Shown here: one piece after another, positions 42,858-61,697 of the stretch
How the letters are laid out: each line of letters begins with the position of its first letter
Position numbering within the stretch: position 1 is the first letter of the stretch
DNA from: a virus
Length of the DNA: 64,000 nt
Strand: one strand, 5' to 3'
IMG/VR virus record: IMGVR_UViG_3300027573_000779
Span: 124,001-188,000 of that record
Notes under the pieces: generated by a model
What the model was told of the DNA's origin: nothing
What the model saw: only the letters and a program-made list of their open reading frames with translations
Databases searched by the model: none
Made by a program: the position numbers and the translations under genes

Positions 42858-43064
42858 TTAAGACCCATTATCAAGGTAACTTATCAAAACATCATTCTGT
42901 GCTTGGTCCTTTACTTGGTCCCAAATTGAGTCATGAATTGGCCAAATTACGTTCCGAACTTGGTTCTCAACTTGGTCTGGAGTCTGGCCTTTAATTTGGC
43001 TTCTCATATGCCACATTTGGCTTCTGACGTGCTGTTGCCAAATTTGAACCTTTAAAGCATCCAT
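42858..43064 (-). CDS. Tetrapeptide (xDQV) repeat family protein
   Basis: 68 aa. Diverged repeats: QIWQQHVRSQMWHMRSQI, DQVENQVRNVIW and IWDQVKDQ. First (rightmost in gene order, lowest coordinate) member of the family. Follows the membrane microprotein by 5 nt. Confidence 0.55.
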   Translation of the reverse strand: MDALKVQIWQQHVRSQMWHMRSQIKGQTPDQVENQVRNVIWPIHDSIWDQVKDQAQNDVLISYLDNGS

Positions 43065-43069
43065 TCCCT

Positions 43070-43219
43070 TTAATTAATACTATCAATTAGCTTACCAAGA
43101 ACAGAATTTTTATATCCACTCTCCGTTGCATCCATTACGAGACAGACCAACGGAAAAATTGTAATTGTACACACAATCAGCAAAAAAAGGATAATTATTG
43201 CTCTGGCAAAAACTCTCAT
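43070..43219 (-). CDS. Single-pass membrane microprotein
   Basis: 49 aa. N-terminal TM helix (residues about 6-29, ARAIIILFLLIVCTITIFPL) with a basic start, then a polar tail. Abuts 43221-43436 (1 nt). Confidence 0.5.
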   Translation of the reverse strand: MRVFARAIIILFLLIVCTITIFPLVCLVMDATESGYKNSVLGKLIDSIN

Positions 43220-43220
43220 A

Positions 43221-43436
43221 TTAATCTTTTGTGTTTATGTTTTCTTCTAAACCCTTAACTATACATTCTGCCCATCGTGCGCCGAACCTCTTGTCATCAA
43301 GCTCCTTATCAATTTCCTTTAGAAAGGACTGAATGTCTCTGCCTAAACCATCAGGGTAGCCGTCGCCATGCCTATAGACAATGGCTCCAGTTGAATCGTC
43401 GCTGTAACAGAAATGAATTGTAGCTCTAGTTGACAT
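43221..43436 (-). CDS. Conserved small phage protein (YRHGDGYP type)
   Basis: 71 aa. STRATIHFCY and AIVYRHGDGYPDGLG match a small conserved phage/bacterial family of unknown function. Promoter TTGACG-16-TATAAT (43443-43470), 6 nt before the ATG. Confidence 0.65.
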   Translation of the reverse strand: MSTRATIHFCYSDDSTGAIVYRHGDGYPDGLGRDIQSFLKEIDKELDDKRFGARWAECIVKGLEENINTKD

Positions 43437-43466
43437 ATTTGGATTATACGATATCTTTTTAAAACG

Positions 43467-43673
43467 TCAAGCGCCCGTTAATGGTTCAAACGTCCTATCT
43501 TTAGGCCAACGGGCTAACCTATGGTCGTTAGCGTATTTTAGCCAAGCTTCTGCTTTTTCTTTATCCTTCCAAATATTCAAGGCAATCTGGCGCATTTCTA
43601 GGGCAGTTTGTTCCTCTTGATAATGCCACATATCCCTATCATCTGAGGACTTAATGTCACGCCAAGAAATCAT
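43467..43673 (-). CDS. Small hypothetical protein
   Basis: 68 aa. Preceded by hairpin repeat 43677-43695. Its end (LTGA-stop) runs into the -35 of the next promoter. Confidence 0.55.
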   Translation of the reverse strand: MISWRDIKSSDDRDMWHYQEEQTALEMRQIALNIWKDKEKAEAWLKYANDHRLARWPKDRTFEPLTGA

Positions 43674-43676
43674 ATG

Positions 43677-43695
43677 CTCAAACGCCGCAGGGCTT
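43677..43695 (-). repeat. Inter-cistronic hairpin repeat
   Basis: Minus AAGCCCTGCGGCGTTTGAG, then CAT and the ATG of 43467-43673. Confidence 0.55.
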
Positions 43696-43934
43696 TAGCT
43701 TTTCGTTTTTATAGGTTTCGCGCTTAGCCAGAGAGTTTGAACTTTCTTTGATTTGGGAAACAACTTATCTAAAATATTTTCTGCTTCTTTAATGTGATGT
43801 TCAAGCGCCGCCTTTGATTGTTCTTTATACTGGTCACTGGACTGAACGAAACTTTTATATAGCTGGACAATCATATCCAATCTACAGTTAGCGTTCTCAG
43901 TTTCGCGAATAAAATCTAAAGCGTTTGTCTTCAT
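43695..43934 (-). CDS. Small hypothetical protein
   Basis: 79 aa, helical. Preceded by hairpin-repeat variant 43938-43956. Unknown. Confidence 0.5.
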   Translation of the reverse strand: MKTNALDFIRETENANCRLDMIVQLYKSFVQSSDQYKEQSKAALEHHIKEAENILDKLFPKSKKVQTLWLSAKPIKTKS

Positions 43935-43955
43935 ACTCTCAAGTGTCGCAGGGTT

Positions 43956-44108
43956 TTAATTCCAAAATGCAATTCCGTGGCTAAATTCTTCTAAATGAAG
44001 AGGGTTCATTTCAAGGTCATTTAAACCATGTATATCAATGTAGGCGATAGGCAAATCATCTTTAGCGCCGTTTTTCTCCAGCAATTCTTTAAGTTCTTTC
44101 CACGTCAT
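43956..44108 (-). CDS. Small hypothetical protein
   Basis: 50 aa (MTWKELKELLEKNGAKDDLP...), similar in style to small phage proteins of unknown role. Promoter TTGCGG-16-TATTCT (44116-44143), 7 nt before the ATG. Confidence 0.55.
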   Translation of the reverse strand: MTWKELKELLEKNGAKDDLPIAYIDIHGLNDLEMNPLHLEEFSHGIAFWN

Positions 44109-44146
44109 AAACAAGAGAATACGATATTTTTTTTATTCCGCAAGCT

Positions 44147-44521
44147 TTAACTTGGGTTAATAAAAGGATTAAACTTAGACTGAGAGTCAAGATTTCTATC
44201 TAAGATGCTCTGTTGCAACATCTTAATAGCTTCAACGCAATCAGCATCTTTAGGTCCGCGCCCTTTGTTCTTTTTAATGTGATTCCAGATTTTATCTGTA
44301 GCACAACACCAAGGAAGATTTGTATTCCAATCATTGTCTTCTTTTTGGAAGCCAATACCAACTGTGCCAAACTTGGGAAAACATACAATTGCCTGATTCT
44401 TACTAACTTTAACCCGCATCAACCAAAAATCTTCATCCAATGGAGGAGTTATTAAAAGTGTGTTGCCAAAAGGTTTTGGGTCTTGAATTTTGTTTGAATT
44501 AAGTTCAATTGTAAGTTTCAT
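44147..44521 (-). CDS. Hypothetical protein
   Basis: 124 aa; start 44521 from promoter TTGATT-16-TATCAT (44528-44555), 6 nt away. Contains FWLMRVKVSKNQAIVCFPKF. Unknown. Confidence 0.55.
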   Translation of the reverse strand: MKLTIELNSNKIQDPKPFGNTLLITPPLDEDFWLMRVKVSKNQAIVCFPKFGTVGIGFQKEDNDWNTNLPWCCATDKIWNHIKKNKGRGPKDADCVEAIKMLQQSILDRNLDSQSKFNPFINPS

Positions 44522-44544
44522 ATTCAGATGATACAAAATCTTTT

Positions 44545-44859
44545 TTAAGAATCAAGCTCTTTTTTAGCTCTTATGTCTATCCCAAATCGACAATAGCCCG
44601 CCCAAGCTGGAATGTTTGAGGCTGAACAGACCTGTAAATTATGCCACTTATGGAATTCTTTGGGCCAATACTTAGGGTCTGCAAGCACTCCTAGCCTAAA
44701 GTGTTCCCGCGCCTCATTAGGAGAATCTGCTAGAATAAAACGCCGCTGGTTCTGATAGCAACCCCACTCGCCTGTAGTCAACAAGTGTTCACTGGTAAAA
44801 GTAACCATCCATCGCTTGTCAGGGGGATACAGCTTGATATCAATTGGGTTTTCATTCAT
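44545..44859 (-). CDS. Hypothetical protein
   Basis: 104 aa. Promoter TTGACA-16-TATGAT (44866-44893), 6 nt before the ATG. Unknown. Confidence 0.55.
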   Translation of the reverse strand: MNENPIDIKLYPPDKRWMVTFTSEHLLTTGEWGCYQNQRRFILADSPNEAREHFRLGVLADPKYWPKEFHKWHNLQVCSASNIPAWAGYCRFGIDIRAKKELDS

Positions 44860-44889
44860 ATCCCAATCATATAATATCTTTTTTAACTG

Positions 44890-45162
44890 TCAACCTTGAA
44901 AATCTTCTCTAGGGGTTACCTTTATCTCAAGAGGAACAACCCAAAAAACCAACAAAAGGTCGCCATTGGGAACCTCTTCGAACCGTCCCACAGTCCAATT
45001 AAAAGATTTGTAATCTGCTAGCTTTTGCATCAAATGAGCGCCGCCATCTAGCGCCCCTTGCGGACTTTTACAGTTTAAGCCATACACATAAAAAGCCCCT
45101 ACTGATAAACCTCTGAAGTATACTGCCGTATATTCTCTGCTTGGAGTAATAATTGTTTTCAT
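44890..45162 (-). CDS. Small hypothetical protein
   Basis: 90 aa. C-terminal FEEVPNGDLLLVFWV resembles 28737-28970. Promoter TTGCGG-16-TAGAAT (45172-45199), 9 nt before the ATG. Confidence 0.55.
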   Translation of the reverse strand: MKTIITPSREYTAVYFRGLSVGAFYVYGLNCKSPQGALDGGAHLMQKLADYKSFNWTVGRFEEVPNGDLLLVFWVVPLEIKVTPREDFQG

Positions 45163-45206
45163 TGTTTTTGTATTCTACAACATCTTTTTTAACCCGCAAG
45201 CTTTTC

Positions 45207-45998
45207 TCATAACATGTTTATAGGTTTCAGCGCCCACCCGAATTGTTGGTTAACTTTAGAATAAAGCTCTCTAATCTCTTGTTCTGCTTTCTCAAGTCGT
45301 TCAAAATCAAGTGGATGTGCGTTTTTAACGTGGTCTCTAGCTTGATGATGCCCCGAATATTTACCCTTTAATAAGATTTGAGTATTACAAAATGAACATT
45401 TAAAGTATGTTTTCATCCTTGGCCCTAAAATCTTTTCTATTGACTGCCACCTTGTAAAAGCTTTCCCTATTAGTTTCTTCAGTCTATTGCGCCAATTGGT
45501 TATACGATACCTAGATTGATAGGGTCCGCTCATAAAAGTGCTGCCTTTTAAGAAAGTAAAAGTATCTAAAACCGCGCCGCTACAGAAGCTAATCTCATCT
45601 TTAAACTTAATTTTGTCACCCTTTTTAACCTTTACTGTTGACCGCTTCTTAATGTTCTCCCAACACCTATCGCGCCACTGTTGCGCCCATTCATAAGTTG
45701 TTGGTGTTAAAAGCTTTAGGATTCTTTCAGGACACTCAGATTCACAAGGTCCCATTTCCTCACTCATATCCTTGTAGCCAAAATTATAGTAATCGTGTGG
45801 TTTATAACCCAACAAGCACACAATACCAATAACGCTCTTTCTTGTGCCATCTTCGTTCAGACACTCATAAGCTAGGTAGGCTGTGCGATAACCCTTTACC
45901 GCGCAATCAATCACACACCCCTGTTTGCCATTGAATTCCTTCTCAAAGAATTCTCGAACTGAAACGCCTTGATTTTTGTTTGTAAATGTCCAACCCAT
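45207..45998 (-). CDS. DUF6927-like protein with C2H2 finger
   Basis: 263 aa. Starts MGWTF; NFGYKDMSEEMGPCESECP and LLTP...WRDRCWENI fit a conserved phage family I associate with DUF6927. C-terminal finger CSFCNT ... H ... H. A promoter (46075-46102) lies far upstream and two hairpin repeats occupy the leader (46004-46022, 46038-46052). Confidence 0.6.
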   Translation of the reverse strand: MGWTFTNKNQGVSVREFFEKEFNGKQGCVIDCAVKGYRTAYLAYECLNEDGTRKSVIGIVCLLGYKPHDYYNFGYKDMSEEMGPCESECPERILKLLTPTTYEWAQQWRDRCWENIKKRSTVKVKKGDKIKFKDEISFCSGAVLDTFTFLKGSTFMSGPYQSRYRITNWRNRLKKLIGKAFTRWQSIEKILGPRMKTYFKCSFCNTQILLKGKYSGHHQARDHVKNAHPLDFERLEKAEQEIRELYSKVNQQFGWALKPINML

Positions 45999-46003
45999 AT
46001 GCG

Positions 46004-46052
46004 CTCAAAAGCCGCGAGGCTTAGTAATTTTTTGGTTAACGCCGCAGGGCTT
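46004..46052 (-). repeat. Two hairpin repeats in one leader
   Basis: Minus AAGCCTCGCGGCTTTTGAG forms a perfect 5-bp stem with loop TCGC; a second copy AAGCCCTGCGGCGTT is further upstream. Both lie between the promoter at 46075-46102 and the ATG at 45998. Confidence 0.55.
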
Positions 46053-46106
46053 AATTGCCCTTAAAGCTATAGACAAGATACACTATCTTTTTAAACTGTC
46101 AACGCT

Positions 46107-46298
46107 CTATGAAAGGCTATGCTGTATATGAGCTAAGTATGAGGCTCTTTTAATCTTCTTCTCTGCTAGGTAAGCTGCCTTTCTCTCCCTTTTGTTTGGG
46201 AACAAAGAAAGCATAACGTCTTCGTGATTTGTGGAATTACCTAATGCGTAAAGAAGATTTTCGGTTTCAAATTGGGTTAATTGAAATGTAACTTTCAT
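46107..46298 (-). CDS. Small hypothetical protein
   Basis: 63 aa, ATGA-coupled to 46295-46495. Helical. Confidence 0.5.
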   Translation of the reverse strand: MKVTFQLTQFETENLLYALGNSTNHEDVMLSLFPNKRERKAAYLAEKKIKRASYLAHIQHSLS

Positions 46299-46495
46299 AT
46301 TGAATGCAAACCTGTTTTCTCAAGCTCTTCAGGACCAAAAGCAACATTTAACATATCAACCGTAACAGAATAGCAACCGTTTTCGGGTATTAGTCTATTT
46401 ACAACCCCACATTGACCTTTCCATGCGCCAGTGAGGATTCTAACCCTGTCGCCAATATTAAAGGATTGCTGTTCTTCTTTTGAGTCTTTATTCAT
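46295..46495 (-). CDS. Small KOW-like protein
   Basis: 66 aa. IGDRVRILTGAWKGQCGVV is a KOW-type motif, usually RNA or ribosome binding. Promoter TTGACA-16-TATAAT (46504-46531), 8 nt before the ATG. Confidence 0.65.
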   Translation of the reverse strand: MNKDSKEEQQSFNIGDRVRILTGAWKGQCGVVNRLIPENGCYSVTVDMLNVAFGPEELEKTGLHSI

Positions 46496-46533
46496 CTGTG
46501 GGGATTATACAAAATCTTTTTAAAATGTCAATG

Positions 46534-46552
46534 CTCCAAAGCCGCAGGGCTT
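46534..46552 (-). repeat. Hairpin repeat just before a promoter
   Basis: Minus AAGCCCTGCGGCTTTGGAG leads directly into TTGACA of the 46504-46531 promoter, not into an ATG. Confidence 0.5.
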
Positions 46553-46606
46553 TTTAATATGAATTGAATATCTGTTGTAATTTGGTCCGCAATTGGGTCC
46601 CCAATT

Positions 46607-46714
46607 TTAACCAACTGTTCGGTCCCAAATGTGATTTTCAACTTGTTCTTGAACTTGGTCCCTAATTTCGTACCTAACTTGGTCTTCAAGTGTATCCCAA
46701 ACTTTCTTCCCTAT
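46607..46714 (-). pseudogene. Degenerate xDQV repeat gene
   Basis: 35 codons with clear repeat (VWDTLEDQVRYEIRDQVQEQ) but no ATG, GTG or TTG at the 5' end (first codon ATA), truncated by TAA. Confidence 0.4.
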
Positions 46715-46719
46715 TTATG

Positions 46720-46738
46720 CTCAGACGCCGCAAGGCTT
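46720..46738 (-). repeat. Hairpin repeat overlapping a gene end
   Basis: Minus AAGCCTTGCGGCGTCTGAG encodes the last residues KPCGV-stop of 46721-46927, showing the element can sit inside coding sequence. Confidence 0.5.
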
Positions 46739-46927
46739 AAAGTTTATTGGTATCACCATTACTTCAATTGGTTTAGAATGTTCGCTTGTCCCATAACCCA
46801 TCTTTAGCGCCGCCGCCCTAGATTTAAATAACTGGTGCGTGTTAGGCAAAAGCCATCTCTTTCTAAGTATATGTTGTGCTTTTTTATGGTGATAACTCTC
46901 ACACCAAGAACACCAAGGAATTTTCAT
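46721..46927 (-). CDS. Small basic hypothetical protein
   Basis: 68 aa. CSWCESYHHKKAQH is a possible zinc site. Promoter TTGACA-16-TATAAT (46936-46963), 8 nt before the ATG. Confidence 0.55.
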   Translation of the reverse strand: MKIPWCSWCESYHHKKAQHILRKRWLLPNTHQLFKSRAAALKMGYGTSEHSKPIEVMVIPINFKPCGV

Positions 46928-46952
46928 ATAGCCAGATTATACAAAATCTTTT

Positions 46953-47222
46953 TTAAGTGTCAATAATTTCCCGCCTATTGATAATCTTTATTCCCGAATG
47001 ATGACAGTGTGGACACTTTTCCTCTGCAACTTCCCCCGTTACTTTAAACTGTGTTCCACAATCACAAGTAAAAGGAGCATGTCTGTTAATATCAGAGAAA
47101 ACATCTACGGGCGCGTCCTGAAGGGTATAAATTCTTAAAAGACAGTCGCCTCCTTTCGATTGAGCTTCTTGTTCTAAGCCGCAACCGGGACAATGAATGA
47201 TAACTGTATCGAAACAACCCAT
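46953..47222 (-). CDS. Small double zinc-ribbon protein
   Basis: 89 aa. Cys pairs CPGCGL, CDCG and CPHCHH. Promoter TTGACA-15-TATACT (47229-47255), 6 nt before the ATG. Confidence 0.6.
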   Translation of the reverse strand: MGCFDTVIIHCPGCGLEQEAQSKGGDCLLRIYTLQDAPVDVFSDINRHAPFTCDCGTQFKVTGEVAEEKCPHCHHSGIKIINRREIIDT

Positions 47223-47295
47223 ATTAAGAGTATACTAAATCTTTTAAATTGTCAATCGTATTTGTTGAGCATTACGCTCAGGGCACATTTCTTTC

Positions 47296-47625
47296 TTACA
47301 CTTCATATATACGTCGAGTTCCACACTTAGGACACCAACCGCTTTCGTCAAGGTGACGCGCCTTACAAGTAGGACATATTTCTGTGGGATTTTCAAGCTT
47401 TTGGACAAGACCGCCCACCGAAACAATGCTCTTGTCTTCAATTTCTGCCTTCTTACGCAACCATTCAATTTCCGCGCTCTCCGCACTTTTAGCTGTCAAT
47501 TCCCTTACAATTTGCATAAGTGTTTGAAACGCAATGTTTTTGGTTGTACAAAGTCCATAAGACCTATTAACAAATTGTACTCCGTTGCGTTCAAAAGCTT
47601 CTTTAATTTCTTGTTCGGTCATCAC
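47296..47625 (-). CDS. Zinc-ribbon protein
   Basis: 109 aa. C-terminal ribbon CPTCKARHLDESGWCPKCGT after a helical N-terminus. ATGA-type overlap with the upstream gene. Confidence 0.55.
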   Translation of the reverse strand: MMTEQEIKEAFERNGVQFVNRSYGLCTTKNIAFQTLMQIVRELTAKSAESAEIEWLRKKAEIEDKSIVSVGGLVQKLENPTEICPTCKARHLDESGWCPKCGTRRIYEV

Positions 47626-47855
47626 GATTCCTTTGTAACATAAGGCCAGTAGATAATATACTCTAATCCCATATTGTCTTGGCAGTATTGTTTTAGTTTC
47701 CTGTGTTTCTTGGCTAAATCAATCACCAACTGAGGATTGCCTGTTACAATTCCCATACATTGGCGACCAAACATTCCGCGCCCCGAATAATCATAGCGCA
47801 CTTCGCCGCCAACTTCTTCTGAGATTTCTTCAATGATTTTTTTGTTGGTTGTCAT
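47622..47855 (-). CDS. Small hypothetical protein
   Basis: 77 aa (MTTNKKIIEEISEEVGGEVR...). The frame is open further upstream to 48110, but that part is only the other frame of an xDQV-family gene; the start at 47855 follows that gene's stop by 1 nt. Confidence 0.55.
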   Translation of the reverse strand: MTTNKKIIEEISEEVGGEVRYDYSGRGMFGRQCMGIVTGNPQLVIDLAKKHRKLKQYCQDNMGLEYIIYWPYVTKES

Positions 47856-47856
47856 A

Positions 47857-48081
47857 CTAAGTGTTAAAGTTTTTATCGTCTTCGGCTTCTTTCTGAGACT
47901 GGTTCCGAATTTGACTCCCGATTTGTTCCCAAATTTGTTCTCCAATCTGATTCTTGAAGTGTTTCCAAGTATATAGCCAAATATGATTCCCGGTTTGTTC
48001 CAATACTTGGTTATTAATGCTATCAGATACTTGCGATATCTGCTCCCAAACCGGCTCTTTTTTAAAGACAATAATATCCAT
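47857..48081 (-). CDS. Tetrapeptide repeat family protein
   Basis: 74-75 aa. Repeats: VWEQISQV, NNQVLEQTGNHIW, NQIGEQIWEQIGSQIRNQ. Start at 48081 gives a 20-nt overlap with the upstream gene; starts at 48099 or 48114 are possible. Confidence 0.5.
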   Translation of the reverse strand: MDIIVFKKEPVWEQISQVSDSINNQVLEQTGNHIWLYTWKHFKNQIGEQIWEQIGSQIRNQSQKEAEDDKNFNT

Positions 48082-48451
48082 AAACACATCTGCTGCCATT
48101 TCGGGTGCAATCATGATTGTCATAAACAACCCCGTCAATAACAGCAACAAAATGTTTACTAACTTGACAAATTAGCTTACCTTTGGGTAGTTCATTAGCT
48201 CTCAAGTGAACTTTACAGCCTTGACCAATAAACATAGTTGGCACCCAAGTCCAACCCAAACTCTTTAAATAGGCTCTCAATACTGACCTTTTTACCCCTC
48301 CCTGATAGCCCTTTTTTGGCCGCAAAGCGTCATAAATCTCCTGATAAGGTTTACCAGTGACAATCGAAACAGCCCTAACAGAACAGTCACCCGTTTTGCC
48401 TTTGTAACCAGCATCAACTCTTCCTCCGTCTGTCAAAACAACATTGTTCAT
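48062..48451 (-). CDS. Putative papain-like cysteine protease-fold protein
   Basis: 129 aa. GDCSVRAVSIVTGKPYQEIYDAL, then a late KHFVAVIDGVVYDNHD gives Cys, His and Asp/Asn in the order of C39/papain-like enzymes. Activity unproven. Start 48451 from promoter TTGATT-16-TATTAT (48458-48485), 6 nt away. Confidence 0.55.
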   Translation of the reverse strand: MNNVVLTDGGRVDAGYKGKTGDCSVRAVSIVTGKPYQEIYDALRPKKGYQGGVKRSVLRAYLKSLGWTWVPTMFIGQGCKVHLRANELPKGKLICQVSKHFVAVIDGVVYDNHDCTRNGSRCVYGYYCL

Positions 48452-48481
48452 GCTGCAATAATACAAAGTCTTTTTTAAAAA

Positions 48482-48733
48482 TCAACCTAAAAATTCATTA
48501 CCGCAAGAGCATTTGTAAGTAACTTTAGAACCATTCTGAACAGTTATATAAGTGGTCCCCGGTGGAGGCCAAGGTCCATCATAATCAAGACTAAAATCCT
48601 TTGGCAAAACCTCTTCGTCATAAGTGATAGGTTCAGATTTAACTATTGCCTCAGGGCCAATTTCCTCTTGGCACTTTGGGCAAACCCTGATACCGTCATC
48701 AACCTCAGGGGGGTCATTCCAATAATCATTCAT
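48482..48733 (-). CDS. Zinc-ribbon protein
   Basis: 83 aa. CPKCQEE and CSCGNE make a ribbon around an acidic Pro-rich centre. Start at 48733 directly follows hairpin repeat 48737-48754; the longer frame to 48787 covers a mini xDQV ORF. Confidence 0.6.
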   Translation of the reverse strand: MNDYWNDPPEVDDGIRVCPKCQEEIGPEAIVKSEPITYDEEVLPKDFSLDYDGPWPPPGTTYITVQNGSKVTYKCSCGNEFLG

Positions 48734-48736
48734 ACT

Positions 48737-48754
48737 CTCAAGCGCCGAGGGGTT
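48737..48754 (-). repeat. Inter-cistronic hairpin repeat
   Basis: Minus AACCCCTCGGCGCTTGAG, 3 nt before the ATG of 48482-48733. Confidence 0.5.
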
Positions 48755-48803
48755 AAAAAAATTTAATATTCCGAACTTGGTCCCCAACTTGACCTTCGTT
48801 CAT
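48753..48803 (-). CDS. Mini xDQV ORF (16 aa)
   Basis: MNEGQVGDQVRNIKFF: the smallest repeat-family ORF, between 48812-49024 and a hairpin repeat. Remnant or microprotein. Confidence 0.3.
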   Translation of the reverse strand: MNEGQVGDQVRNIKFF

Positions 48804-48811
48804 AATATCGT

Positions 48812-49024
48812 TCAAAGTTTAATGTCTGGCCCACCAATACCCTTGATAATTCCGTTTTCAGCATAGGTAACATACAAAACATGTCTCTCTTCCTCTGAAA
48901 TGAGACCCGCATCGCCCAAGGCATCAACGTAACCCGCCAAATAAGGATTTGGAACTTGGTCCGACTCCTCATACATTTGGACCATAGCTTTTTCAATGAG
49001 GGTTATTGCGTGTTCTATGTTCAT
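48812..49024 (-). CDS. Small hypothetical protein
   Basis: 70 aa. NPYLAGYVDALGDAGLISEEE is a helical pattern seen in small phage proteins. Promoter TTGCAG-16-TATCTT (49031-49058), 6 nt before the ATG. Confidence 0.55.
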   Translation of the reverse strand: MNIEHAITLIEKAMVQMYEESDQVPNPYLAGYVDALGDAGLISEEERHVLYVTYAENGIIKGIGGPDIKL

Positions 49025-49063
49025 ACTGCAAAGATACAGTATCTTTTTAAACCTGCAAGCCTT

Positions 49064-53435: not shown

Positions 53436-53684
53436 TCAAAATGAGTTTTTGGTAGTTACAAAAACTTGTTCCATAATTTGGAGTCGAACCTGTTCTTGGG
53501 TTTGTTCCCAACCTCTTTCTAATTGGTCCCAAACTTGGTTTCCAACTTGGTTTCCAATTTGATTGCTAAAGTGATACCTAATTTGATTTAGAATTGTTAA
53601 ATATTTTTTATCCATTTCACAAACAGGTCTAAGACAAAAACCATACCGAATGCTAAAACTAATATTAATATAATGTACATTCAT
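53436..53684 (-). CDS. Tetrapeptide repeat family protein
   Basis: 82 aa. A unique N-terminus precedes NQIGNQVGNQVWDQL and EQTQEQVRLQIMEQV. ATGA-type overlap with 53681-53896. Confidence 0.55.
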   Translation of the reverse strand: MNVHYINISFSIRYGFCLRPVCEMDKKYLTILNQIRYHFSNQIGNQVGNQVWDQLERGWEQTQEQVRLQIMEQVFVTTKNSF

Positions 53685-53896
53685 TCAACTAAACTGTTGA
53701 TTTGGTGCTCAATTTGGTAGCCAATTTCTGCCCACATTTGGTTTTGAGTTTGGTCCCAAACTTTGTTTTCTATGGTTTGATGCCCAATTTGCTTAGAAAT
53801 TTGAAGTCTTATTAAGTCCAAAGTATCTGTTAAGACTTGGCACTGAAACCGGTACTGGTCCCTAATTTGGTCTTTTGTTTTAAATCTCTTCAACAC
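53681..53896 (-). CDS. Tetrapeptide repeat family protein
   Basis: 71 aa. Diverged repeat: KVWDQTQNQMWAEIGYQIEHQ. Overlaps 53880-54227 by 17 nt. Confidence 0.5.
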   Translation of the reverse strand: MLKRFKTKDQIRDQYRFQCQVLTDTLDLIRLQISKQIGHQTIENKVWDQTQNQMWAEIGYQIEHQINSLVE

Positions 53897-55192: not shown

Positions 55193-55230
55193 TTATTAAA
55201 ACTTTTTTAAAAATCAATCACAAAAAGAAA

Positions 55231-55518
55231 CTAAGGAATTCTTGGTGGCAGTGGTAAAACAATTCCTAATTTAGTAAGGGCTTGTTCATCTGTATTGTTC
55301 AACCCGTTATAAATCACTTTTGTAGCTATATAAAGACACTCGGCTTGTGTCCAATCTGGAAACCTTTTCTCTAAAGAATCACAAAATCTATCCCTTAATT
55401 CTTCAACAGGTATGGGATTAGATTTAGAAACAAATGTAAAAGCAATTTTGAAAACCACGTCTGCTAAAATTTCAGAATTATCACTTAAATCTTTTAAAAT
55501 TTTTGGTGAAATTTTCAT
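55231..55518 (-). CDS. Hypothetical protein
   Basis: 95 aa, helical. The ATG at 55518 overlaps the upstream stop (ATGA). Unknown. Confidence 0.5.
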   Translation of the reverse strand: MKISPKILKDLSDNSEILADVVFKIAFTFVSKSNPIPVEELRDRFCDSLEKRFPDWTQAECLYIATKVIYNGLNNTDEQALTKLGIVLPLPPRIP

Positions 55519-55730
55519 AACCATATTTGCTCAAGAACTTGGTTCCGAACTTCCATGAAAACGTCATTCCTTATTTGTTCCCTAGATGGGTTTCCAACAT
55601 GCTTCATAACTTGGCTCCCAATCTCAGTTCGGTCCCCAACTTGGTCCATAACGTGGTCCCAAACTTGGTCCATAACGCGGTCCCAAACTTGGTCCACAAC
55701 TTGATACTGAATTTTGGTGACTAAGCTCAA
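55515..55730 (-). CDS. Tetrapeptide repeat family protein (TTG start)
   Basis: 71 aa. DQVWDRVMDQVWDHVMDQVG is well conserved, then diverged copies. The only in-frame start is TTG, immediately after the upstream TGA. Confidence 0.5.
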   Translation of the reverse strand: MSLVTKIQYQVVDQVWDRVMDQVWDHVMDQVGDRTEIGSQVMKHVGNPSREQIRNDVFMEVRNQVLEQIWL

Positions 55731-56027
55731 TCAATCCGCTTTTGTTTCAACTTCTTCAATAGAATATTCAGGTAAAGCTTTATTAATCCGCAGTTTAACG
55801 CGCTCTATAATTGGTTTTACCACATCGGGCGCTCTGGCTACGGTTTTGAGTTTATTAGCTCTACCTATAGCTACCCGTAAACCAAAGTCTCTGTTAAACG
55901 AGTCTCCAGCATCAATATTGGTATAGCTCCAGCCAATATGAACCGTTTTGCGGTCATGGTCTTCTACTCCCGCCACAATGCCGCGCCTTTGATTTGTTTT
56001 GGGGTCTCTGACAAATTGAATAAACAT
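55731..56027 (-). CDS. Hypothetical protein
   Basis: 98 aa. DPKTNQRRGIVAGVEDHDRKTVHIGWSYTN resembles small phage proteins of unknown role. Promoter TTGCTT-16-TAAAAT (56034-56061), 6 nt before the ATG. Confidence 0.6.
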   Translation of the reverse strand: MFIQFVRDPKTNQRRGIVAGVEDHDRKTVHIGWSYTNIDAGDSFNRDFGLRVAIGRANKLKTVARAPDVVKPIIERVKLRINKALPEYSIEEVETKAD

Positions 56028-56065
56028 ATCTGTATTTTAAATATTTTTTTTAAAAAAGCAAGCAA

Positions 56066-57061
56066 TTAATAGTCCTGATTTAAAATCTTGACCGACAGTG
56101 ATTTACCAAGAATTGGGGAATATTTGGGCGTTATTGGTCGCAAAACAATCCCCTCTGCCTTGCGCTCTTGTCCTGTAGATGTGAGATAAATAGCCTTGTT
56201 AGCTTCTTCCTGAAGCCGCGCCATGGTCCAAGTATCATCAAATGTAAAAGGTTCACTAACAGGAATAACCACAGGAATTTGCAATTGGTTGCATAACTCA
56301 TTTATTTCCTGCCAGTTATACCATTTGCCAGTATCAAATTCTTTAACATTAAAGACAAACATCTGAAAACTGTTCAGGCCCAATGGGTTACCTTGAATTT
56401 TGCCCCCGCAAGCCTCTGCTTGAATAGCAATGTTTTTACCCAACTCTTTAAGCTTAGAAGTTAGATTATATTGGTCTGCAATCTTCCAAAAGCCGGTCCC
56501 TTCTTTTTGCTCCAGCCGCCGACTGCAAACGCGAACTTCACCGTTTTCATAAATCACAGTCATTGAAGAACCGTCAGCTTTGATAGTTAAATAACAAAGT
56601 TCATTCCTAAACTCTTCTAAAATCTCTGGATAGTTTTGAATGTTTTCTTCGTCTGTAATTGAGATTAAATGAGTAGGAAAAGAACCCTTGGCGTCTCCAT
56701 TAACAGAAGAATCAATAGGTTTGTCGTATTTTAAAATACCTAAAGCTTCCGAAACGTCCGAACCTTCTTCAACCTGATAGTTATAGCTTGGAATGATAGT
56801 TAAAGGGCAAACTAAACCCTGAGAAGGAGAGCCGCGAAACTTGGCGTTCCAGACACGATATTTTTGCCTTTCTAAAAAACTAAAATAAGAATTCGCGCTA
56901 GGAACAATAGAGTCAATACGAATAAACACCACTAAATCGCCGTTTTTATATTCTCCCTTCTTAACCACAACAGGCCATTCTTTAATTTTGGCGACTTCAA
57001 GAGAGTCGGCGTTGAAATGTGGTTGGACGCTATGAATTCGTTCAATTGTGGCTAATTTCAT
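56066..57061 (-). CDS. RNA ligase (Rnl2/DRB0094-type)
   Basis: 331 aa. N-terminal OB-like domain (residues 1-110), then nucleotidyltransferase motif I KADGSS (Lys161), EAxGG region (about 216-221), motif IV EGIVLRP (303-309) and motif V SVKILN (323-328). It should join RNA ends through a lysyl-AMP intermediate. It is preceded by a structured leader with an 18-codon ORF. Confidence 0.9.
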   Translation of the reverse strand: MKLATIERIHSVQPHFNADSLEVAKIKEWPVVVKKGEYKNGDLVVFIRIDSIVPSANSYFSFLERQKYRVWNAKFRGSPSQGLVCPLTIIPSYNYQVEEGSDVSEALGILKYDKPIDSSVNGDAKGSFPTHLISITDEENIQNYPEILEEFRNELCYLTIKADGSSMTVIYENGEVRVCSRRLEQKEGTGFWKIADQYNLTSKLKELGKNIAIQAEACGGKIQGNPLGLNSFQMFVFNVKEFDTGKWYNWQEINELCNQLQIPVVIPVSEPFTFDDTWTMARLQEEANKAIYLTSTGQERKAEGIVLRPITPKYSPILGKSLSVKILNQDY

Positions 57062-57071
57062 TTTAAAAGGT

Positions 57072-57108
57072 ACCCACTAGCGAACTGGCTAGTGGGTGGT
57101 TTTTTTTA
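57072..57108. terminator. Strong hairpin before the RNA ligase
   Basis: ACCCACTAGC / GCTAGTGGGT, perfect 10-bp stem, 6-nt loop. The T8 run follows on the plus strand; on the minus strand only ACCTTTT follows, 10 nt before the ligase ATG, so it may act as an attenuator or ribosome-site switch. Confidence 0.6.
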
Positions 57109-57115
57109 CCTTTAC

Positions 57116-57172
57116 TTAACAAGCCTGCAAACCAACAAACAGGTTAATTTGCAGCGTCTTCCCCGAAGACAT
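57116..57172 (-). CDS. 18-aa leader peptide of the RNA ligase gene
   Basis: MSSGKTLQINLFVGLQAC. Promoter TTGACT-16-TATCAT (57177-57204) ends 4 nt before the ATG, so the RNA begins about at the ATG. Hairpins GTCTTC-GGG-GAAGAC and CTGCAAA...TTTGCAG lie inside the ORF. It may instead be part of a non-coding leader. Confidence 0.4.
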   Translation of the reverse strand: MSSGKTLQINLFVGLQAC

Positions 57173-57251
57173 TTTAATGATATCAAGCCTTTCTAAAAAG
57201 TCAATCTCTCAAGTGCCGAGGGGCTAAGTTTTCGCTAAGTGCGCCGCAAGG

Positions 57252-57503
57252 CTAATCTTTTTGGTGAACTTTAAATGCTAGTATCTTAGTGGGGTTTGGA
57301 CAACGCCAACCGTCAGTAATACACTCATATCCAAGAGTCCTCAGAACTGTTCTAAAAGTATTTGTTTCACTTAATGATAGTTCTACCGCATCGCCCACAT
57401 TCATTGTGTTCGCTAAAGTAATGAGATTCTTTAAGGTTTGTTCTCTTGAACCCCTTCCTTTAGGAATGGGTAAATTTTTATGTATCGTAAAACTTTTAAC
57501 CAT
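57252..57503 (-). CDS. Small conserved phage protein
   Basis: 83 aa. NLPIPKGRGSREQ, a GDAVELS segment and ITDGWRC match a small phage family (DUF7303-like) of unknown role. 5 nt after 57509-57940. Confidence 0.55.
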   Translation of the reverse strand: MVKSFTIHKNLPIPKGRGSREQTLKNLITLANTMNVGDAVELSLSETNTFRTVLRTLGYECITDGWRCPNPTKILAFKVHQKD

Positions 57504-57508
57504 TCGTT

Positions 57509-57940
57509 TTATGGTAAAGGTAACATTTTACTTGGGATTAGCCTAAATCTATCTTTTTTGTTTTTGCTTTGAATATATCTTTTAATATCATCGTGTCTTC
57601 CATAAATACCCCTTTCAGAGTATTGATAAGGCTCCCATGCACCGTATCCATCCCAATCGGTACAAAACTCAATTACTATCTGAAAAACGGGCGCTTTTAA
57701 GTGAACCCATTTTCCTAGCTTAGAATCATAAACATGTACTCCAGCATTATCATAATATTTTTTGCGCTCTATTTCTTTATAGGTTGTGCCGCCTTTATTG
57801 CCACATTTCGGACAATATTCCCAAGGGTCTTCAATATTTAAAGTAAACTGTTTATGGCAGCTTAAGCATTTAAAACGAGCATAATGGCCATCTCCATGGT
57901 CTTCTTGCCATTTGGGACTAATTTGTAATAAAGTTCTCAT
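57509..57940 (-). CDS. Zinc-ribbon protein
   Basis: 143 aa. CLSCHK and CPKCGN form a ribbon near residues 25-48; the rest is Trp/Tyr-rich. Follows an xDQV gene by 11 nt. Confidence 0.55.
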   Translation of the reverse strand: MRTLLQISPKWQEDHGDGHYARFKCLSCHKQFTLNIEDPWEYCPKCGNKGGTTYKEIERKKYYDNAGVHVYDSKLGKWVHLKAPVFQIVIEFCTDWDGYGAWEPYQYSERGIYGRHDDIKRYIQSKNKKDRFRLIPSKMLPLP

Positions 57941-57951
57941 ACAGGGCTATT

Positions 57952-58176
57952 TTATTTTTGGTCCCAAACTTGGTCCTCAACTTGGTCCCAAACTTGGCCC
58001 TGAACTTGGTCCCAAACTTGGTCCCGAACTTGGTCCCGAACTTGGTCCCGAACTTGGTCCCGAACTTGGTCCCGAACTTGGTCCCAAACTTGGTCCCAAA
58101 CTTGGTCCCAAACTTGGTCCCGAACTTGGTCCCGAACTTGGTCCCAAACTTGGTCCTCAACTTGACCCTCAATCAT
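57952..58176 (-). CDS. Tetrapeptide repeat family protein, most regular member
   Basis: 74 aa made of about 17 tandem units (W/R)DQV, from residue 5 to the end. The DNA is a 12-bp tandem repeat (GACCAAGTTYGG), so other frames on both strands are also open (LGPK, LVPN and KFGT repeats). The DQV frame is chosen because diverged family members keep only this one. Confidence 0.6.
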
Positions 58177-58189
58177 AAAGATTTAGTTT

Positions 58190-58315
58190 TTAATTCCTCA
58201 ACTTGCCAATAAACTTGGTCTTTAATTTGTTACCATTAACTTGGTTCCAAACTTGGTCCCCAACTTGGTTCCGAACTTGGCCCCAAACTTGGCCCCAAAC
58301 TTGGTCCGCGTTCAT
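58190..58315 (-). CDS. Tetrapeptide repeat family protein, frameshifted end
   Basis: 41 aa: ADQVWGQVWGQVRNQVGDQV then an abrupt loss of the pattern. A different frame continues as [15 protein letters not shown], so a small deletion probably shifted the end. Confidence 0.45.
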   Translation of the reverse strand: MNADQVWGQVWGQVRNQVGDQVWNQVNGNKLKTKFIGKLRN

Positions 58316-58344
58316 AAAAGAAGGGTAGCCCCGCAAGGCTACCC
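58316..58344 (-). terminator. Intrinsic terminator
   Basis: GGGTAGCC-TTGCGG-GGCTACCC, perfect 8-bp stem, then TTCTTTT on the minus strand, right after the DUF932 gene. Its loop and arms resemble the inter-cistronic hairpin repeat. Confidence 0.8.
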
Positions 58345-58353
58345 CAAATTAAC

Positions 58354-59358
58354 CTAATTTTTTGGCAAGGTTAAGTCCTGTAGGAGTAAATCAGTAGCCC
58401 TCTGTTTGAGATTAGCTCCAGTACCAAGTAGCGCCGATTCAAACTTTGCTTCCTGTCTATTAGCTCCTTCTTCTGCTCTGGTGCTTCTTTTTTGGTCAAC
58501 AAATTCAGTTATACTGTTTAGGTAATCATACCTTGTCTCGCCTACATTCCCTGTGCCACGCTGAAAAAGTTCTGTTACCTGCTCTCGAATATTCTCAGTT
58601 CTTGAGCTACATTCATAAAGTCCAGTTTCCTTATTCAATTTCCCCGGAAACAAGGTTTCATTGTACCTAACTACCTCTTCTTCATTGCATTTCTGGTCTT
58701 TGAGCATTTTCAAGACTAGCTCCAGCCGCCCAAAATAACCATAAGCAATTCCGAGCGCCCTTTGAACTTCCTCTTTGTGACTCTTAAAACTTTTGGTATG
58801 GCGCATCTTAACCTGATTCTTTGCGCCTTTTAGGGCTGCATTAAGGGTGTTTTGACAGACTACCCGCACCGCTACATTCTGCATCCATACTGAGTGCGTA
58901 CCATCGTGGCTTGAAATCATCAAAATCCACTTGTCCATCTTATCGCTAGGGTCAATATACATGGTTTCTGGCAGCTTGGCCATAATCCAGATTTTGCGCC
59001 CCTCTCTTAAAGACCCCGCAGTCTCATAAACTGCCTGACCTTCAGAAATAACCGAATCAAAAAATTCAAAAGCTTCCTCGTTTTGGACTGGCGTATATCG
59101 ATTACCTACCACTCCCAGTTTAACCCCATTGTCCTCCCTTACAACAGCTTTATAATCTTCAAATTCAGAAAGACCACTCTCTGTCTGAATAAAAATTGGC
59201 TCTTTGCGAACCCTCCAATCCAAATGCGCCAATTGGATTGCTTCTTTGGCTGTAACTGTTCCTTTGACAACGCTTCCCAATGAATGCCAAGGAACTATAT
59301 TATTACCGCTAAAAGTTTCCGCAGTGCCGTCTTCTCTAATTGTTATTTCGTGTGACAT
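58354..59358 (-). CDS. DUF932 / phage-plasmid TIGR03299-like protein
   Basis: 334 aa. PWHSLGSVV, YTPVQNEEAFEFFD, and VRVVCQNTLNAAL are hallmarks of the DUF932 family found in phages and plasmids, function unknown. Promoter TTGACG-16-TATGCT (59389-59416) leaves a 30-nt leader without a clear SD site, unlike its neighbours. Confidence 0.8.
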   Translation of the reverse strand: MSHEITIREDGTAETFSGNNIVPWHSLGSVVKGTVTAKEAIQLAHLDWRVRKEPIFIQTESGLSEFEDYKAVVREDNGVKLGVVGNRYTPVQNEEAFEFFDSVISEGQAVYETAGSLREGRKIWIMAKLPETMYIDPSDKMDKWILMISSHDGTHSVWMQNVAVRVVCQNTLNAALKGAKNQVKMRHTKSFKSHKEEVQRALGIAYGYFGRLELVLKMLKDQKCNEEEVVRYNETLFPGKLNKETGLYECSSRTENIREQVTELFQRGTGNVGETRYDYLNSITEFVDQKRSTRAEEGANRQEAKFESALLGTGANLKQRATDLLLQDLTLPKN

Positions 59359-59412
59359 ATTGTTTTACAAGTTTGTTTATCTGTCTACAGCATAACAAAT
59401 CTTTTTAAACCG

Positions 59413-59595
59413 TCAACAGGTTTCTTTTGAAAGTCTCCCCACTGCTTTTTCAAGTGCAACCATCTTAACCTCAAGTGGTTGCCCAGTCAAAAAAGCAACC
59501 AAAAGAGATTGAGACAAATCTTCTATTATCACATCAGCCTCTTTTGGAGGAGTAGTACGAGTTTGTGTCCTAATTTTAGACAGGCAGTTCTTCAT
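59413..59595 (-). CDS. Small hypothetical protein
   Basis: 60 aa, helical, ATGA-coupled to 59592-59828. Unknown. Confidence 0.5.
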   Translation of the reverse strand: MKNCLSKIRTQTRTTPPKEADVIIEDLSQSLLVAFLTGQPLEVKMVALEKAVGRLSKETC

Positions 59596-59828
59596 TGTTT
59601 CTTTATAAAAATTACGCTCTCTTCAAGCCCGAAAGCCCAAAGAAAATTATTCCAACCTCTGTGTCCTAGTCCGCGCATTTTCCAGACTATTCTTTTAGTA
59701 TCATGAGCATTTTTGATTAACCAGTCTTGTTTTTGTTCTCTAGACCAGTTAACGTTGTATATTTCATCCACAGGAAAGAATCTTGTGTTGTCAGCTAAAA
59801 AATCTTCAATTTCTGGTAAATTTGGCAT
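59592..59828 (-). CDS. Hypothetical protein
   Basis: 78 aa, Trp-rich. Directly preceded by hairpin repeat 59831-59848 (TTGAGCA then ATG). Unknown. Confidence 0.5.
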   Translation of the reverse strand: MPNLPEIEDFLADNTRFFPVDEIYNVNWSREQKQDWLIKNAHDTKRIVWKMRGLGHRGWNNFLWAFGLEESVIFIKKQ

Positions 59829-59830
59829 TG

Positions 59831-59848
59831 CTCAAGCGCCGCAAGGCT
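59831..59848 (-). repeat. Inter-cistronic hairpin repeat
   Basis: Minus AGCCTTGCGGCGCTTGAG, 2 nt before the ATG of 59592-59828. Confidence 0.55.
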
Positions 59849-60035
59849 AGTTTATTTTTAGGTCTCTAACTTGGTCCCAAATTTGTCCCACAACTTGGCT
59901 TCTAAATTGGTCCTGTATTTGGCTTTGGCCCCAAATTTGTTTCTTGGTTTCATGCCCAACTTGGTCCCAAATTTCGCTCCAAATTTGGTCCCAAACTTGG
60001 TCCCGAACTTGTCTTTTTATTAAATTACTATTCAT
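59847..60035 (-). CDS. Tetrapeptide repeat family protein
   Basis: 62 aa. [20 protein letters not shown] and a second block ending IWDQVRD. Overlaps 60028-60291 by 8 nt. Confidence 0.55.
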   Translation of the reverse strand: MNSNLIKRQVRDQVWDQIWSEIWDQVGHETKKQIWGQSQIQDQFRSQVVGQIWDQVRDLKIN

Positions 60036-60291
60036 TCAAATAATCATCGGGATTAACTTCTTCGCCAACATCGTCTTCTTCAGTTAAAGGAGAACCACAA
60101 ATAGCACAAATTTCTTCTAAAAGCGAATAGCTGCTATGCGCTCCGCCATCTCCCTCTTGAACCAATACTTCAACCAGTTTATAGACGCGCCAATTGACTA
60201 ACTCTGCTAATACTGGCAAGTCTTCCTTGGTAGGAGGCCAACAAGAGGCGCAAAGGTCTAAATGTTGGTCGTTAAGTCTTATTCTAGGCAT
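60028..60291 (-). CDS. Small zinc-binding protein
   Basis: 87 aa. CASC (14-17) and CAICGS (about 63-68) with an acidic end. Preceded by hairpin repeat 60294-60311. Confidence 0.55.
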   Translation of the reverse strand: MPRIRLNDQHLDLCASCWPPTKEDLPVLAELVNWRVYKLVEVLVQEGDGGAHSSYSLLEEICAICGSPLTEEDDVGEEVNPDDYLNE

Positions 60292-60293
60292 CT

Positions 60294-60330
60294 CTCAAGC
60301 GCCGAGGGGCTAAGTTTTCGCCGCAGGGCT
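60294..60330 (-). repeat. Two hairpin repeats in tandem
   Basis: Minus copies AGCCCTGCGGCG (60319-60330) and AGCCCCTCGGCGCTTGAG (60294-60311), the latter 2 nt before the ATG of 60028-60291. Confidence 0.55.
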
Positions 60331-60535
60331 AGTTTATTTTTATGTTCCAAATGTGTTCCACAACTTGGCCTTCTACTTCTTCCCCAACTTCTTCCCAAAC
60401 TTGGCCCCAAACTTGTTCAAAAACCTGTTCCCAAACTTGACCTTCTACTTGGTCCCAAATTTGTTCCCCAATATGGTTATGAACTTGGCTCCTAATTTGG
60501 TCATCAATTTGCTTCCTAATGTTATCTTTCGTCAT
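60329..60535 (-). CDS. Tetrapeptide repeat family protein
   Basis: 68 aa. MTKDNIRKQIDDQI start; QIWDQVEGQVWEQVFEQVWG centre. TAATG overlap with the upstream gene. Confidence 0.55.
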   Translation of the reverse strand: MTKDNIRKQIDDQIRSQVHNHIGEQIWDQVEGQVWEQVFEQVWGQVWEEVGEEVEGQVVEHIWNIKIN

Positions 60536-60759
60536 TAACGCGCCGATTTAAATTCTGGTATTTCCATCCAATGCGCCCGAACTGAAGGTAAAGCTATTGT
60601 ACTCGTATAAGTTAAATCATTGTCCGTCATAACAATAATTTTTGTGCCTTGCTGCTCCCATCTTCCAGTAATTTGCTGCCATCCCTCTTTCCGTTTAAGA
60701 GACCAAAGAACGGTGGTTTTTTGTGGAGGTTTCTCTTTCTCGAAATTCTTCCAAATCAT
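60535..60759 (-). CDS. Small hypothetical protein (DUF551-like?)
   Basis: 74 aa. W-K-x-x-x-K-E-K-P-P-Q-x-x-T-V-L-W and a final W resemble small DUF551-type phage proteins. Start 60759 from promoter TTGACA-16-TATCAT (60767-60794), 7 nt away. Confidence 0.55.
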   Translation of the reverse strand: MIWKNFEKEKPPQKTTVLWSLKRKEGWQQITGRWEQQGTKIIVMTDNDLTYTSTIALPSVRAHWMEIPEFKSAR

Positions 60760-60796
60760 AAAAACGATGATAATAAAAGTTTTTAAAATGTCAATG

Positions 60797-60843
60797 CTCA
60801 AGCGCCGCAGGGCTTAAGCCCTTTTTTTAAAACGCCGAGGGGC
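60797..60843 (-). repeat. Two hairpin repeats before a promoter
   Basis: Copies at 60797-60815 and 60830-60843; the first runs (TTGAGCA) straight into TTGACA of the 60767-60794 promoter. Confidence 0.5.
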
Positions 60844-61060
60844 TAAGCGCCATAGGGGGTTCTGTGTTCCAAGCTTGGTGCCAAATTTGGTTTTCTACTT
60901 GGCTCCCAATCTGTTCCCAAACTTGGTCCCAAATCTGTTCCCAAACTTGGCCCCAAACTTGGCCTTCTATTTGGTTCCAAATTTGGTCCCCAATATGGTG
61001 GTCCCCAATATGGTCCCTAACTTGGTCCATAACTTGGTTCTGAATGTTGTCTCTTGTCAT
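60827..61060 (-). CDS. Tetrapeptide repeat family protein
   Basis: 77 aa. MTRDNIQNQVMDQVRDHIGD start, then IEGQVWGQVWEQIWDQVWEQ. Ends in a unique tail covering a hairpin repeat. Confidence 0.55.
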   Translation of the reverse strand: MTRDNIQNQVMDQVRDHIGDHHIGDQIWNQIEGQVWGQVWEQIWDQVWEQIGSQVENQIWHQAWNTEPPMALSPSAF

Positions 61061-61074
61061 GTTCTTAAGGAGGG

Positions 61075-61284
61075 CTAGGTTTCACTAAAACATTTATTTG
61101 AAATTTGTATCATAACTTCATGCCGTAATTGGTTCCAGTGTTCCTGACCTTGGTAAACTTGGTCCCCAACTTGGTTCCAAACTGCTTGGTTCCCAACTAG
61201 GTTTTGAATACTCTTAAAAGTTTGCCCCAAAACGCCATTATATAACTGATGATGTAACTGATTCTCAATCTTATTTCTAGTCAT
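61075..61284 (-). CDS. Tetrapeptide repeat family protein, diverged
   Basis: 69 aa. MTRNKIENQLHHQL start; NQAVWNQVGDQVYQG in the middle. Overlaps 61277-61489 by 8 nt. Confidence 0.5.
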   Translation of the reverse strand: MTRNKIENQLHHQLYNGVLGQTFKSIQNLVGNQAVWNQVGDQVYQGQEHWNQLRHEVMIQISNKCFSET

Positions 61285-61489
61285 GTGTCTCTAAAACTTG
61301 GTCCCCAACTTGGGTCCTAACTTGGTTCCGAATTTCTTCTAAAGATGGATGTAAAAAACGTCGCCCCCAAAGTAACGGGTGCGAAGTCGGGTCTTGGATT
61401 TGATTATAAATTTGCTTCAAAATTTGGTCCCAAGTTTGGCCCCAAACTTTTGCGAACACCTGACTCTTAATCTCATCTTTGGTCATGTT
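61277..61489 (-). CDS. Tetrapeptide repeat family protein, interrupted
   Basis: 70 aa from the ATG at 61489 (MTKDEIKSQVFAKVWGQ). The repeat is split by a non-repeat insert (DPTSHPLLWGRRFLHPS) and resumes as NQVRTQVGDQV. Confidence 0.5.
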   Translation of the reverse strand, partial: NMTKDEIKSQVFAKVWGQTWDQILKQIYNQIQDPTSHPLLWGRRFLHPSLEEIRNQVRTQVGDQVLETHD

Positions 61490-61490
61490 T

Positions 61491-61697
61491 TTAGTAAATT
61501 TTGCTGCACCGAAAAACTTGGTACAAAATTTCATTTTTAATTTCATACCTTATTTGTGGGTCCCAATAATCCTGAATTTGGTTATGAACCTGCTTGCTAA
61601 TTTGGTTGCCAGCTTGGTTGAACAACGGTCTTACAACAAGTTCCGAAGTTTGACCCCGAACAAAAGCATCCTGATTCTCAATCTTATCTTGGGTCAT
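61491..61697 (-). CDS. Tetrapeptide repeat family protein, diverged
   Basis: 68 aa. MTQDKIENQ start; NQAGNQISKQVHNQIQ. Overlaps the nucleotidyltransferase gene by 14 nt. Confidence 0.5.
   Translation of the reverse strand: MTQDKIENQDAFVRGQTSELVVRPLFNQAGNQISKQVHNQIQDYWDPQIRYEIKNEILYQVFRCSKIY

Follow-up and report, generated by a model that had tools for sequence, protein, structure and literature searches.

Short QV-repeat genes of a phage as the in-trans form of a repeat fused into DUF6745 proteins

DUF6745 (PF20530; PHROG 31813) is an already catalogued domain whose entry carries no function, and in many of its viral members a tetrapeptide repeat separates the DUF6745 domain from an N-terminal one. 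The same repeat also occurs in a family of short minus-strand genes in a 64,000-nucleotide stretch of viral DNA (the window), which comprises positions 124001-188000 of the 208,933-bp IMG/VR virus record IMGVR_UViG_3300027573_000779. These proteins, built from units of the form x1-x2-Q-V and here called QV proteins, differ from the DUF6745 proteins in being the repeat alone, without the DUF6745 domain; Pfam scans of the window QV proteins and of their relatives returned no match to PF20530. We conclude that QV genes are a real and widespread phage gene family, that they are the in-trans form of a repeat which elsewhere is part of the DUF6745 protein itself, and that the window phage holds matching genes for DUF6745 and for a small protein with a TGHxH motif. 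As to function, we lean towards the view that the DUF6745 protein receives a variable helical rod in trans from the short proteins. The literature searched held no mention of the longer repeat strings, DUF6745 or PF20530, and the arrangement looks new as a described system.

Viral contigs were scanned with the protein encoded at 57952 of the window, and 250 of them proved to encode DQV repeats, in two architectures. Type A is a single protein of 400-550 amino acids (aa) that begins with an N-terminal domain, continues with a long [WRG][DAN]QV repeat and ends in the DUF6745 domain (PF20530); type B consists of many short genes that encode the repeat by itself. Type B loci were collected with a start-plus-repeat pattern scan, the counts from which are lower bounds: there are dozens of loci at least, with up to 29 genes each among the matches listed, and at least 312 distinct stand-alone repeat proteins with W in at least 90 loci, the 40-95-aa subset alone giving at least 272 distinct proteins in at least 75 loci. 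The number of units per protein peaks at 12-14 among the proteins listed, the start methionine holds the register MxxV-xxQV, and no periodicity of W across the units was found. Of 165 neighbouring tandem QV pairs, 140 have a 4-17-nt overlap between the stop of one gene and the start of the following one (exactly 4 nt in 70), a pattern resembling that of translationally coupled genes. When bacterial and archaeal genomes were scanned in a comparable way, type B genes were nearly absent from the matches listed, most of which were unrelated QV strings such as a C-terminal TEQV repeat in other proteins, along with one short SQV protein (L268). Some bacterial and archaeal loci (L251, L260, L271, L281, L295 and L350) encode proteins of ~450-600 aa in which a TEQVTEQV, TPQVTPQV or SDQV repeat precedes a C-terminal winged-helix-like segment; this is a separate family whose repeat only looks similar.

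When the non-repeat neighbours of type B genes are clustered, the largest cluster is that of a DUF6745 protein without the repeat, present at 19 loci, on the same strand in all 19 and at a median distance of 89 bp; it is followed, on the coding strand, by that of a 117-aa protein bearing the TGHxH motif. PF20530 scored over its cut-off in 10 of 16 QV-array virus records, compared to 0 of 30 control phage records (Fisher 2e-6). A reciprocal scan was run with a DUF6745 alignment, and among complete genes, the only ones counted, 24 were fused to a repeat without repeat neighbours, one was fused with such neighbours, 13 were unfused with them and five had neither (Fisher 3e-6); stand-alone repeat genes thus lie near 1 of 25 fused DUF6745 genes versus 13 of 18 unfused ones. 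The fused repeat occupies one fixed place, between the two domains. The fused protein of L503 and its counterpart in L504, an in-trans locus, share 55% identity over 335 residues, indicating that fusion or fission occurs within one lineage. Fused repeats use the alphabets QV, SV, QL, SL, NL and AV, each homogeneous within one protein, so that a hydrophobic residue every four is kept and the preceding polar residue is fixed within a protein; this variety was seen at L509, L518, L530, L542, L545, L556, L558, L565, L578 and L584.

The genome of the window phage itself fits the in-trans arrangement. A hidden Markov model (HMM) built from 14 window QV genes, with the diverged gene at 47857 left out of the build and recovered by it, found at least six extra QV genes in L489, at 189.1-201.6 kb of the record (E 3e-15 to 3e-7; best shuffled decoy 6e-4). 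The range of 42858-61697 given for the family in a preliminary description of the window, made from its letters alone, is thus incomplete, and the phage would carry some 20 short QV-repeat genes. Between 192.4 and 194.4 kb of the record, with every gene on the minus strand, three QV genes (193831-194432) lie directly upstream of a DUF6745 gene (192755-193774; PF20530 domain E 1.6e-15), which is adjoined by a TGHxH gene (192400-192711, or L489:4400-4711 (-)). The DUF6745 domain encoded here is 48% identical to that of L504. This partner, which the preliminary description could not see, gives the QV family its context.

The TGHxH gene adjoins DUF6745 in 67 of 79 viral loci versus 0 of 160 control loci. 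Its product (for example that of L489 above, or of L587:6552-6923) is a conserved protein of 100-130 aa that carries a terminal (R/Q)QREY..VxD as well as GHxH and H(E)EH-like motifs, whose histidines are suggestive of metal binding; no Pfam family was found for it. Searches of cultured phages by tblastn with QV proteins gave almost no matches, probably because low-complexity filtering masks them, and DUF6745 was used as the query in their place. The DUF6745/TGHxH module was found in the cultured phage Ma-LMM01 (gp174-gp175, no repeat), beside uracil-DNA glycosylase and DNA polymerase genes, and also in a Mycobacterium prophage (fused QL repeat) and two actinobacterial genomes; of the cellular genomes sampled, few have DUF6745 (3 of 150 and 2 of 149). 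The Ma-LMM01 neighbours gp169, gp173, gp178, gp180 and gp181 are middle, replication-phase genes, and gp174 and gp175 go unmentioned in the same paper (PMC5780444). PADLOC models gave no credible match to the QV, DUF6745 or TGHxH proteins.

The QV protein encoded at 60329-60535 was modelled by AlphaFold2 (107 sequences) as one helix spanning residues 3-67, with a mean predicted local distance difference test score (pLDDT) of 91 and a predicted template modelling score of 0.41, and each QV protein is accordingly predicted to be a single alpha-helix; of the helix or solenoid proposed in the preliminary description, it is the helix that agrees with the model. In an ideal helix, Q and V fall on one side and x1 and x2 on the opposite side, in a stripe turning 40 degrees per unit. 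The model of the phage's own DUF6745 protein has a mean pLDDT of 78 and is of low confidence in the linker, residues 82-117, where other members hold the repeat; Foldseek found no match for it in the PDB (best E 0.19), and in BFVD only its own family was convincing. In this picture, one set of viruses has the predicted helix (x1-x2-Q-V)n built into the DUF6745 protein, between its two domains, and another set, including the window phage, pairs a repeat-free DUF6745 with a helix provided in trans by many small genes. The constant Q/V side may dock on DUF6745 or on further QV copies and the variable x1/x2 side may face a changing target, such that the phage would keep a repertoire of interchangeable recognition rods. 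The main rival to docking on DUF6745 is a structural role with selective pairing, which we regard as possible but rather doubtful: QV helices would pack together and with DUF6745 as a bundle, filament or intracellular scaffold, and x1/x2 would govern which paralogs pair. The single long predicted helix, the four-residue period with constant V and variable x1/x2, the 12-14 units per protein and the many paralogs per genome would all suit such rods, but the module of Ma-LMM01 lies among replication and nucleotide-metabolism genes rather than structural genes, and the array-only divergence between the near-identical L391 and L438 is faster than expected of an internal scaffold.

In that comparison, L391 and L438 have 12 differences in ~3.2 kb of flank, compared to 16-27 per 100 bp in the array, starting with its first QV gene. 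Two of the gene pairs match in length, and their codons differ by 49 nonsynonymous and 8 synonymous changes, almost all of them at x1/x2; Q is always kept. Within young arrays, the nonsynonymous measure (pN) far exceeds the synonymous one (pS) at x1 and x2 (0.43 vs 0.00 at x2 of L081) and not at Q, although the units were selected for Q and V, which lowers pN there by construction and leaves the x1/x2 contrast as the firm part; the same bias applies at Q in the window phage (pN 0.11 vs pS 0.47). At the level of sequence, these relatives show Q and V conserved while x1 and x2 diversify. The terminase relatives of the window phage are ~48% identical and those of its DUF932 protein at most 38%, too distant for ortholog dN/dS in this phage itself, and no DNA-level relatives of the window region were found in cultured phages.

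A targeted mutator, such as a diversity-generating retroelement, that rewrites x1/x2 in place might leave changes of this kind, given that those between L391 and L438 fall mostly at x1/x2 with gene lengths equal and that first and second codon positions vary and third do not. On the pattern of substitutions we consider this extremely improbable, in that they are of every type and not adenine-specific, the adenines of CAA are untouched, and whole-array replacement by recombination accounts for L391/L438 equally well. Extending the preferred view of a helical rod for DUF6745, the x1/x2 pair could form a recognition code along a single helix, with a reshuffled rod repertoire plugging into a common DUF6745/TGHxH effector as a phage variable-recognition system; in this full form the proposal is unlikely. 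Anti-host recognition by the QV system is plausible, and it is a guess that the target of the rods belongs to the host, for instance as a factor in defence or in some other host process.

Among the units of the stand-alone proteins, 92% have Q at position 3 and 88% have V at position 4, with many residues at x1 and x2, while the DNA of the unit varies among phages (GATCAGGTC, GATCAAGTC, GACCAAGTT, GACCAAGTG and AATCAAGTA) and encodes the same or similar amino acids. The spacings between neighbouring repeat cores in relatives comprise 4767 multiples of 12, 57 other multiples of 3 and 155 that break the frame, a class that includes overlaps between tandem genes. Selection on protein in the DQV frame, as suggested in the preliminary description, is thus borne out: protein-level conservation in relatives is very clear, and frame-breaking spacings, far from being as common as in-frame ones, number 155 against 4824. 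DNA runs of at least five cores lie inside an open frame with a start in 388 of 432 cases, a weak test as the unit itself has no stop. That the repeat is a DNA- or RNA-level element, for recombination or protein binding, with its coding a by-product, would agree with a core that is near-invariant, wobble bases included, in young arrays. Such an element is nonetheless very hard to credit, given that the wobble positions of the core differ between phages (GATCAGGTC, GATCAAGTC, GACCAAGTT and AATCAAGTA) and Q and V stay, and that DUF6745 proteins carry SV, QL, SL or NL repeats with unrelated DNA. The self-complementary CCAA/TTGG pointed out earlier is not kept in relatives, which have units such as GATCAGGTC; as other phages use a different DNA core it is incidental, and the palindrome idea for the 12-bp unit was dropped.

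The preliminary description also proposed an expanding gene family made by tandem-repeat slippage; the expansion is supported, but the family is widespread rather than made here, and fresh slippage is seen in one member only (57952). The sole near-perfect 12-bp array that Tandem Repeats Finder (TRF) detected in the window is at 57958-58164 (17 copies, 91%), and the other window QV genes are old and diverged. A selfish or near-neutral satellite, in which the 12-bp repeat expands by slippage and spreads since the DQV frame gives a harmless soluble helix, would account for this fresh array, for the homogeneity of arrays and for the near-uniform codons within each phage. It seems to us quite improbable, as against it stand the narrow distribution of protein lengths, the start/stop coupling of tandem genes, the fact that phages encode identical amino acids with codons of their own, the reading frame kept across repeat cores, the fused versus in-trans link to DUF6745 and the excess of pN over pS at x1/x2.

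Several points weigh against the proposal of a variable rod acting with DUF6745. About one third of the QV-array records show no DUF6745, none of these being rated complete; AlphaFold readily yields helices for low-complexity sequence; and the pattern used to collect type B loci favours regular repeats. In the window phage, x1 and x2 are saturated at synonymous sites too, and the paralogs are old, so that diversifying selection has been shown in relatives and not in this phage. Young arrays show hardly any variation at the third codon positions of Q, V and x2; diversifying selection alone does not account for this, and recent amplification or a DNA-level constraint may be the cause. Type B arrays such as L081:9586-17231 present nearly invariant wobble bases and freely varying first and second codon positions of x1/x2.

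Within the window, the 12-bp unit GACCAAGTTYGG has 72 matches with at most two mismatches, compared to 7.7 expected and a maximum of 14 in 100 shuffles, almost all of them on the minus strand at 42.9-61.5 kb. Open reading frames (ORFs) with at least four in-register xxQ(V/I) units number 13 on the minus strand and none on the plus strand, and 60 first-order Markov simulations yielded none. All of the short ORFs listed in the preliminary description are present on the minus strand at its coordinates (Table 1), though two of them are better described as a remnant lacking a standard start codon (46607) and a 16-aa ORF (48753). Two starts are also likely to differ from those first given: that of 58190 is more likely the internal ATG (MNADQV), and that of 61277 more likely MTKDEI near 61486, with which a 56-nt overlap disappears.

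Table 1. QV-repeat genes and remnants in the window (window coordinates)
Feature	Position	Strand	Evidence
QV-repeat protein, 68 aa	42858..43064	-	ORF; AAAGGGA upstream of start; in HMM set
Degenerate QV-repeat remnant, ~35 codons, no standard start codon	46607..46712	-	Translation (frame 1)
Diverged QV-repeat ORF, <=97 aa, start uncertain	47857..48150	-	Outside HMM build, recovered at E 1.7e-14
16-aa ORF MNEGQVGDQVRNIKFF, probable fragment	48753..48803	-	Translation
QV-repeat protein, <=82 aa, start overlaps stop of 53681	53436..53684	-	ORF, HMM
QV-repeat protein, 71 aa, GTG start	53681..53896	-	ORF, HMM
QV-repeat protein, 64 aa	54767..54961	-	ORF, HMM
QV-repeat protein, 74 aa	54968..55192	-	ORF, HMM
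QV-repeat protein, 71 aa, TTG start	55515..55730	-	ORF, HMM
QV-repeat protein, 74 aa, near-perfect 12-bp tandem array, youngest member	57952..58176	-	ORF, GACCAAGTTYGG matches, TRF
QV-repeat protein, 48 aa as called, 41 aa from internal ATG	58190..58336	-	ORF, HMM
QV-repeat protein, 62 aa	59847..60035	-	ORF, HMM
QV-repeat protein, 68 aa, AlphaFold single helix	60329..60535	-	ORF, AlphaFold, HMM
QV-repeat protein, 77 aa	60827..61060	-	ORF, HMM
QV-repeat protein, 69 aa, start overlaps stop of 61277	61075..61284	-	ORF, HMM
QV-repeat protein, 69 aa from MTKDEI; called 61277-61546 from first ATG	61277..61486	-	ORF, HMM
Diverged QV-repeat protein, 68 aa	61491..61697	-	ORF, HMM

Among other genes, an AAA ATPase (PHROG 1250) with the start MPRGVPRxGYRKPR frequently adjoins QV arrays in one phage clade (L384:3298-4176, L400:8146-9018 and L478:4605-5483). 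The window also encodes, at 25694-27790 (+), a subtilisin-like (S8) protease with an apparent signal peptide, as judged by reading the sequence, and, at 8485-11274 (-), a 929-aa protein of GGG/VGG...N repeats resembling trimeric adhesin head repeats, which is probably a tail fibre.

The QV family is common in environmental viruses and has probably been hidden from ordinary searches by low-complexity filters. The fused versus in-trans pattern gives DUF6745, and a large class of small phage proteins that await explanation, a first partner that can be tested. The fast change of x1/x2 beside near-unchanged flanks suggests a phage system of conflict or recognition, one that lends itself to tracking in natural populations.

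Considering described families, weak HMM matches to DUF4816 (PF16086) were obtained for 38 of 107 members (best E 3.5e-6), with a best score in single-protein scans of 23.6 bits against a gathering cut-off of 29.4; these probably reflect composition, and this candidate was rejected. Pentapeptide-repeat proteins likewise have a short-period repeat with one constant hydrophobic residue, but the QV period is four residues (12 bp) rather than the five of A(D/N)LXX, and the predicted fold is a helix and not a beta-solenoid. Classical coiled coils differ in their heptad pattern, which the QV proteins, with a hydrophobic residue every four in register, do not show. Diversity-generating retroelements also bring about rapid change at fixed residues on a constant scaffold; the QV variation, however, is not adenine-specific, and many paralogs share its scaffold, a short single helix. 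Modular recognition proteins such as transcription activator-like effectors (TALE) and pentatricopeptide-repeat (PPR) proteins have two variable residues per constant repeat, as do QV units, a resemblance of logic only, as the QV proteins carry a four-residue repeat in a single predicted helix in place of a helical-hairpin solenoid.

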